A stretch of 64,000 nt of DNA from Ignavibacteria bacterium (lineage in GTDB: Bacteria > Bacteroidota > Ignavibacteria > Ch128b): NCBI GenBank assembly GCA_013177855.1, contig JABLYA010000001.1, positions 1,653,573-1,717,572 on the forward strand, in the 5' to 3' direction. The number at the start of each line of letters is the position of its first letter. Position 1 is the first letter of the stretch. The translations under genes were made by a program, and so were the position numbers. The notes under the pieces were generated by a model, which worked only from the letters and a program-made list of their open reading frames with translations, did no database searches and was not told the DNA's origin. Shown in pieces: positions 38,266 through 39,879 of the stretch.

Positions 38266-38400
38266 ATGGGCAAAGGTGATAGACGAACAAAAAGAGGAAA
38301 AATCTTTCGTGGAACTTTTGGTAAATGGAGACCACGAAAAAAGAAAAAAAACAAATTAACTCAAGAAGCTAAGCCCGAACAAACTGAGACTAAAGAATAG
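38266..38400 (+). CDS. 30S ribosomal protein bTHX
   Basis: A 44-residue basic peptide beginning [20 protein letters not shown] matches the THX family, which sits at the top of the 30S head in Thermus and in Bacteroidetes/Chlorobi relatives. It has a longer, Lys/Glu-rich tail ([19 protein letters not shown]) than Thermus THX. An AAGGAG site lies a few bases upstream, and a strong terminator follows. Its position after moxR suggests it ends that operon. Confidence 0.9.
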
Positions 38401-38443: not shown

Positions 38444-38491
38444 AACTCCCGCAGATAGCGAATATGATTTGCGGGAGTTTTTTGTTTTTTT
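38444..38491 (+). terminator. intrinsic terminator after bTHX
   Basis: AACTCCCGCA (38444-38453) and TGCGGGAGTT (38470-38479) form a perfect 10-bp stem, followed by a long T-rich run. It closes the metG-to-bTHX direction of transcription about 45 bases after the bTHX stop. Confidence 0.93.
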
Positions 38492-38593: not shown

Positions 38594-38655
38594 TTGAGTA
38601 TTTATACTCAAAAGATTGAGTAAATTTACTCAATGCATTGAGTAATTTTACTCAA
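38594..38655. promoter_or_regulatory. three tandem 18-bp palindromes with 22-bp period
   Basis: TTGAGTA-N4-TACTCAA occurs three times, at 38594-38611, 38616-38633 and 38638-38655. All seven arm bases are identical in each copy; the middle four differ (TTTA, AATT, ATTT) and the spacers AAGA and TGCA are four bases each. The exact 22-bp repeat places each centre about two helical turns apart, as expected for cooperative binding of a dimeric regulator. The block ends 31 bases before the start of the decayed AAA/DUF4143 gene, so it looks like an operator for that gene. Confidence 0.75.
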
Positions 38656-38686
38656 TATCTATAAATTTAATTTTCTGGGTTTTGAG

Positions 38687-39879
38687 ATGTATGAAAGAAA
38701 ACAATTAAAACTTTTGCTTGAAAAAATTTCGTACAAAAAAATTTGACTCAGGTGATTACTGGACTAAGGCAATCCGGTAAAACTACACTTGCAACACAAT
38801 TAACTAATAAAATAAAAATACCATATCATTTTGTATCGGCTGATGCAGTTCCTTCATCGAATATGATGAGGATTAAACAACAGTGGGATTTTGCAAGAAT
38901 TCAATATAATCAATCAGGAAGAAATGAGTTTTTATTGTTAATTGATGAAATACAGAAAATTTAAATTGGAGTGAATTAGTTAAGAAAGAATGGGATTACG
39001 ATAGAAGGCAAAAAATTAATATAAGAGTAATTTTACTTGGTTTCTCAACTCTCTTAATAAATAAAGATTTAAGTGAGTCACTTGTCGGTAGATTTGAATT
39101 GATTAAACTGCCACACTGGTCTTTTTTAGAAATGGAAGAAGCGTTCGGACTAAAACCCGAAGAATATGTATACTTTGGTGGATATCCAGTTTCGGTTGAT
39201 TTTAATAATGATGAATCAAGATGAAAAGATTATATCAGAAACTCTATTATAGAAACCACGATTTCAAAAGATATCTTACAACTTACCAATATTCAAAAAC
39301 CAGTACTGTTGAAAAATTTTTTCGAGTTAGGATGTATTTATTCTGGCAGATATTATCATATACAAAAATGTTAGGTCATTTAGTAGATGCTTGAAATACA
39401 ACTACTTTAGCTCATTACCAAAATTTATTAAATGAAATCTGGTTATTGTGTGGAATACAAAAATATTCTGGCTTAAAGATTAAAATTCGCTCTTCGACTC
39501 CCAAGTGGTTAACATATAACACGGCACACTTATATCTGTTTATGATGATTTTAATTTTTCCTCGCTTAAGTCAAATCCTGTTGAGTTCGGTCGTCGAGTT
39601 GAACAATCAATTGGAGCGTATTTACTAAACTCGGCGCGTGTCCATAACTTTAATATTTATTATTGGCGCGATGCAAATGATGAGGTTGATTATGTAATTC
39701 AAAAAGGTAAGACTGTAATTCCAATTGAGGTTAAAATTGGGAAAGTAAAATTTCATCGGGGTTTGCGTCGATTTGCTGAACAGTTTAAAGTGAAAAAAAA
39801 TTTTAATTTCGGACGAAACATTGGATTGGAAAGACTTTTTAAAAATGAACTTGAACGAACTATTCTGAAAAAAATTTGA
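38687..39879 (+). pseudogene. decayed AAA ATPase of the AAA_14/DUF4143 family
   Basis: A typical N-terminus MYERKQLKLLLEKISYKK starts at 38687 but a frame break occurs in the A-run just before 38743. The P-loop part (GLRQSGKTT) and Walker B (LLLIDEIQKI) are then readable, with another break near 38960 before NWSELVKKEWD. In-frame stops interrupt at about 39223 (Trp position in SRWKDYIRNS) and 39393. The C-terminus keeps the DUF4143 block YYWRDANDEVDYVIQ and PIEVKIGK and ends at 39879. At least four lesions make this a true pseudogene. Intact relatives are often called mobile or defence-like ATPases of unknown role. Confidence 0.85.

Follow-up and report, generated by a model that had tools for sequence, protein, structure and literature searches.

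Directly upstream of a decayed ATPase gene in the window, by which is meant the whole 64,000-nucleotide stretch of the Ignavibacteria bacterium contig that was analysed, are three exact copies of the palindrome TTGAGTA-N4-TACTCAA, with start-to-start distances of 22 and 22 bp, as the original prediction had described them. The regularity of the array goes deeper than these three palindromes. The segments that join them (TACTCAA-N4-TTGAGTA at 38605–38622 and 38627–38644) are also palindromic, and the array can therefore be read as six 7-bp half-sites whose orientation alternates every 11 bp. The features of the locus are as follows.

38594–38655, no strand: palindrome array of six 7-bp half-sites, forming three perfect 18-bp palindromes (sequence; same lattice upstream of homologues)
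38594–38611, no strand: palindrome 1, TTGAGTATTTATACTCAA (sequence)
38616–38633, no strand: palindrome 2, TTGAGTAAATTTACTCAA (sequence)
38638–38655, no strand: palindrome 3, TTGAGTAATTTTACTCAA (sequence)
38638–38665, plus strand: possible promoter, with a -35-like TTGAGT (38638–38643), a 16-bp spacer and a -10-like TATAAA (38660–38665) (sequence; analogy with sigma-70 overlap at homologues)
38687–39868, plus strand: decayed ATPase gene of the PDC-S01 type, with AAA_14, winged-helix and DUF4143 regions (Pfam pieces, subfamily model, alignments with L127 and the sister-species copy)

In a scan of the window at 0, 1 or 2 mismatches the three palindromes are the sole matches; at up to three mismatches there are ten, a total near the shuffle level (mean 6.27), whereas three tandem exact palindromes exceed shuffle expectation. 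The 3.66 Mb genome contains three exact copies of the motif, all within this array, and a reversed-pattern control gave none. Dispersed palindromes of the REP/BIME type were rejected since this locus alone carries the motif in the genome, and a plasmid iteron or replication origin with a Rep gene was rejected since the contig is chromosomal (2.65 Mb) and has cellular neighbour genes, among them a MoxR-like ATPase gene adjoining the locus. Positions 38266–38400 of the window encode a small basic protein, presumably resembling the small ribosomal protein bTHX, and are followed by a terminator-like hairpin near 38445–38485.

The decayed gene runs from an ATG at 38687, 31 nt beyond the end of the array, to a stop codon at 39866–39868. 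The decay that had been claimed for it is confirmed by about five frameshifts, near 38740, 38962, 39347, 39526 and 39801, and two in-frame TGA codons at 39222 and 39392. It is too broken for whole-length scoring and was matched to Pfam in pieces, of which those for AAA_14 with its Walker A motif (38.1 bits) and for DUF4143 (45 bits) exceed the Pfam cut-offs. The closest intact homologue found, L127 from Ignavibacterium sp., is 57–73% identical to it over the main segments. A sister species (G001) shares the locus, with a MoxR neighbour that is 91% identical, an ATPase gene that is also broken and an array that is degraded. Three other DUF4143 genes are present in the window genome, none of which belongs to the same subfamily.

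The original prediction had also suggested that a still-active factor binds the array here. This is not supported, since the gene is broken, the array perfect and no intact gene of the same subfamily left, the exact motif occurs nowhere else in the genome, and the sister species has a degraded array. That the array is still perfect most likely means that the gene decayed recently. Other genomes keep arrays left after gene loss. By a rough hand estimate, the chance that all 42 arm positions stay unmutated after gene death is 3–24%, and no special constraint on the array is therefore claimed. The window array looks like an orphan relic, an early stage of a gene-loss process seen elsewhere.

Intact homologues match the PADLOC model PDLC04791 (PDC-S01) over their full length (L127, 566 bits; L096, 578 bits), the window copy being a pseudogene of this type, and L127 contains both Pfam domains (AAA_14, E 5e-24; DUF4143, E 3e-21). 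PMC12988326 characterises PDC-S01 as an ATPase with a PD-(D/E)XK domain that ranks fourth in frequency among prokaryotic defences, and states that most such candidates still await experimental validation; PADLOC lists it as a candidate phage-defence family. Sequence searches with a family protein returned no match among solved structures or NCBIfam models, and the viral contigs searched contained distant relatives alone (≤27% identity). The ATPase gene moves horizontally and is present on plasmids and on a phage-like contig. In the paper library searched, a single paper, on Thermus Argonaute, names DUF4143.

Distribution of the array

Protein alignment against 84,980 species genomes, in which homologues were picked by protein similarity alone, detected 80 homologues in more than 12 phyla. 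Most of their upstream regions carry the same lattice right before the start codon, with half-sites alternating every 11 bp. When these homologues were combined with relatives from the class (91 upstream regions of 150 nt, one mismatch allowed per half-site), at least two half-sites were found in 76/91 regions vs 87/3003 control windows from the same loci, and at least four in 29/91 vs 1/3003. Half-site pairs are predominantly on opposite strands at 11 bp (115) or on the same strand at 22 bp (82), 33 and 44 bp being the next best distances. The last half-site lies a median of 15 nt from the start codon, gene starts being predicted by rule. Chance origin of the array is ruled out by the three tandem exact copies, their uniqueness in the genome and these homologue and control counts.

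In the class set of 245 genomes, an array at no more than one mismatch occurs in 20 of the 30 genomes that have the gene vs 11 of the 215 that do not (Fisher p ~1e-14), and a pattern with spacing off by one, used as a register control, matches in 1/245. These genome counts refer to the one-mismatch pattern only, the two-mismatch pattern having a high background that the reversed control also matches. On inspection by eye, nearly all genes of the class set have the array or a variant of it, as do additional records from Thermus, Bacteroides and Collinsella plasmids and from a phage-like contig. The search for the motif in the genome and upstream of family members, as suggested by the original prediction, thus recovered it before the homologues. 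Preservation of the exact spacing upstream of homologues in many phyla lends strong support to the earlier proposal of an element copied with the ATPase family and, as far as sequence comparison can indicate, to that of a cooperative operator.

The array is private to the gene rather than part of a regulon, as the window genome has it at this locus only and other genomes contain few extra arrays. Downstream of several extra or solo arrays lie gene remnants, namely the last 26 codons in L282, a gene with an internal deletion in L292 and one with a truncated start in L149; others lie at assembly breaks, a scaffold gap in L288 and a contig end in L284. The array can therefore serve as a marker for lost PDC-S01 genes (L282, L292, L149, L288). 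In five genomes (L283, L285, L286, L287 and L289) neither an ATPase gene nor a remnant of one could be recognised near the array, and these arrays may be relics or something different; that of L285 is directly before a gene for a Clp1-like P-loop kinase, identified by eye. Arrays reach six half-sites in L300. An intact ATPase gene in L297 (G164:C1:1944177-1945448) is flanked by two arrays whose first 28 bp are identical.

Repeat variants, the winged helix and the promoter

The sequence of the repeat varies among family members and its period is largely retained. Only 22 bp stands out in the lag spectrum, with 48 of 90 loci reaching at least 10/11 identity there, compared with at most three at any other lag; a 22-bp lag is strong in 19 of the 30 loci that do not contain an exact TTGAGTA, any other lag being found in at most one of them. 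Variant repeats in some members are the direct repeats TTGAGAATTTT, TTGAAGATTTT, AATCGGAGATTTT and TTGAACATTTT, or AATTTTATAAAAT, most of which keep 22 bp. L189 carries the AATCGGAGATTTT type and L127 the TTGAGTA type. The TTGAGAATTTT direct repeats of gut Bacteroidota also retain this period.

An AlphaFold model (pLDDT 93.9) places helices at residues 206–218, 226–232 and 239–251 and strands at 255–260 and 274–277, a region predicted to form a winged helix that separates the ATPase domain from the nuclease-like one, with 239–251 as the putative recognition helix. AAA+-winged-helix proteins are near the top of a fold search, for example Orc1/Cdc6 on origin DNA and RuvB, at low whole-chain TM-scores (~0.3–0.4). 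The predicted recognition helix covaries with the repeat: GNTTTLAHYL is paired with TTGAGTA, GNVTTLASYL with TTGAGAATTTT, GNATTLVNYL with CGGAGATTTT (TTGAAGATTTT in L204), and GTVPTIGSYL or GTVPTIKNYL with AATTTTATAAAAT. A blind scan, in which 15-residue windows along the protein were compared with operator content by partial correlation, ranked STTLAHYQDLLEQIW highest (0.244), followed by an overlapping window (0.211) and a segment past the wing (0.201). Given the rest of the protein, the correlation of helix with operator is 0.268, above that of 1000/1000 permutations, which ignore shared ancestry. Part of this covariation may be phylogenetic, because variants of the operator are concentrated in gut Bacteroidota.

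In a subset of homologues the array sits on the gene's own predicted sigma-70 promoter. TTGACA-like -35 sites matching at 5/6 positions or better peak 16 and 17 bp from TTGAG[TAAAAT] (9 matches vs 0–3 at other spacings), and the -10 hexamer of these loci is the TAAAAT of TTGAGTAAAAT, as in TTGACT-17-TAAAAT (L174, L177) and TTGACA-17-TAAAAT (L156). A simple consensus scan finds a -35/-10 pair in only 21/90 loci, and promoter type varies by phylum. The direct repeats of gut Bacteroidota stop right before a TAnnTTTG sequence, which we take to be the -7 element type of promoter. In the window, the predicted -35-like hexamer is inside palindrome 3, and the promoter there is a possible one by analogy, as promoter rules in the host phylum may differ.

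Interpretation of the array and related systems

Taken as a whole, the array is probably an operator through which the downstream ATPase gene is autoregulated, read by the ATPase's own winged helix; the window copy of this operator would be an orphan. Most likely the ATPase, which consists of AAA_14, a winged helix and a PD-(D/E)XK-like DUF4143 domain, would bind the array through that winged helix, each half-site being contacted by one subunit and successive subunits occupying neighbouring major grooves along the same side of the double helix. Binding of one subunit per half-site in 11-bp steps would align the subunits cooperatively over the promoter and so repress their own gene. This repression would be relieved when the protein is titrated or is engaged at other sites, such as invading DNA, a response that would fit a candidate defence gene. 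Since operator and reader would share one transcription unit, they could move between phyla and change together.

The same data would accommodate a site that parks or licenses the ATPase-nuclease, in which case the array would anchor or sense self DNA and regulation would be secondary. A single protein that joins an effector nuclease with its DNA reader hints at such a role and arrays can be long, as in L300, but the location is the gene's own promoter and other chromosomal arrays are few, as an operator would predict; we consider this reading unlikely. Control of the ATPase gene by an independent host transcription factor, either FNR/CRP-like or another global regulator, would agree with the overlap of arrays and promoters and with the superficial likeness of the TTGA...TCAA dyads to FNR boxes. 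However, FNR half-sites are spaced as TTGA-N6-TCAA and those of the array as TTGA-N10-TCAA, so that the repeats are not FNR/CRP boxes. A host factor would moreover have to account for the same array accompanying the gene in more than 12 phyla, for its confinement to that gene (three copies in the window genome, few extra arrays in others) and for a repeat sequence that follows the ATPase's own helix, and is quite unlikely.

Solo arrays, the intact gene of G164 with an array on both sides, and horizontal movement of a gene that occurs on plasmids and a phage-like contig would be in keeping with a site of mobility or recombination (an element end, target or excision scar) instead of an operator. 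None of the 80 homologue loci has a downstream array, though, the recognisable remnants beside extra arrays are those of the same gene (L282 and L292 with internal deletions, L149 truncated, L288 at its scaffold gap), and arrays overlap promoters, which makes this explanation very unlikely. Hairpins formed in the leader RNA, as an attenuator or processing signal, would explain the strong predicted folding of the window leader (z = -5.5) and of that of L127 (z = -5.2). They are highly improbable because the direct-repeat variants keep the 22-bp period and barely exceed shuffles in folding (z -1.1 to -1.5 for L160, L189 and L192; -2.1 for L204); what is conserved is the period and register, not the inverted symmetry, and some arrays extend over the promoter sequence.

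No earlier account of the array was found in the open paper library searched, in which bioRxiv is absent and the majority of subscription journals are missing; the papers found describe no operator or autoregulation of PDC-S01, and the top matches of a literature text search with the motif were all unrelated. Winged-helix Rep proteins read phased repeats at plasmid iterons, also at Rep's own promoter, and these and Orc1/Cdc6, to which the family has fold similarity, resemble the proposed operator and reader in placing a winged-helix or AAA+-winged-helix protein on phased repeats. The window locus differs from both in having no origin or Rep gene, being a single chromosomal gene with a nuclease-like domain. 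The C proteins of restriction-modification systems provide dedicated local regulation of defence genes via promoter repeats. Dedicated local control via promoter repeats is also exerted by WYL-domain regulators of defence islands (PMC9122601). In both cases, unlike the arrangement proposed here, the regulator is encoded by a separate gene. We know of no lattice of 11/22 bp conserved across phyla in either system. RptR, the repressor of a restriction-modification island, acts at a defence promoter that contains three repeats in series, with a small palindromic core and an operator conserved with the genes (PMC12255303). The window array is likewise a repeat series with palindromic units at the putative promoter of a defence candidate and is conserved with its gene, but there the reader is a distinct protein, the small dimeric repressor RptR, whereas the one proposed here is a domain of the ATPase-nuclease itself.

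If a conserved operator changes with the effector's helix, the winged helix should bind DNA, the promoter should be amenable to assay and specificity should be open to swapping. A DNA-recognition code can be tested from the pairs of helix and repeat, and genes of PDC-S01 that have been lost can be traced in the DNA by their arrays.

Phased repeats in other DUF4143 subfamilies

Significantly repeated upstream words are present at 22/69 DUF4143 genes outside the subfamily vs 3/69 control upstream regions. Their lags are 22–23 bp in 11 loci and 32–33 bp in 11 loci, which is two and three helical turns, with other lags in at most one locus outside multiples. An intact paralogue in the window genome (G000:C1:2066912; L004 positions 1280–1430) has its own 32-bp array, TTTCGGTTGAAACCGAAA. 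These findings, from a small sample and by simple statistics, suggest that phased upstream repeats are a family-wide principle. We offer more tentatively the possibility that each PDC-S01/DUF4143 subfamily has a private phased repeat code, of two or three turns, read by the internal winged helix of the ATPase-nuclease; the effector would then double as DNA sensor and as repressor of its own gene, and operator and helix would co-evolve as a portable unit, allowing the gene to pass from phylum to phylum and to keep its self-regulation wherever it arrives.

Three repeat types were recorded upstream of genes from other DUF4143 subfamilies: GTGGATAATCATCCAC-type repeats in L045, L051, L053, L071 and L072, CATTTGGTCGG direct repeats in L052, L055, L058, L062, L076 and L078, and CTCCTTGTAAGAAGGAG repeats in L118, L119 and L121.
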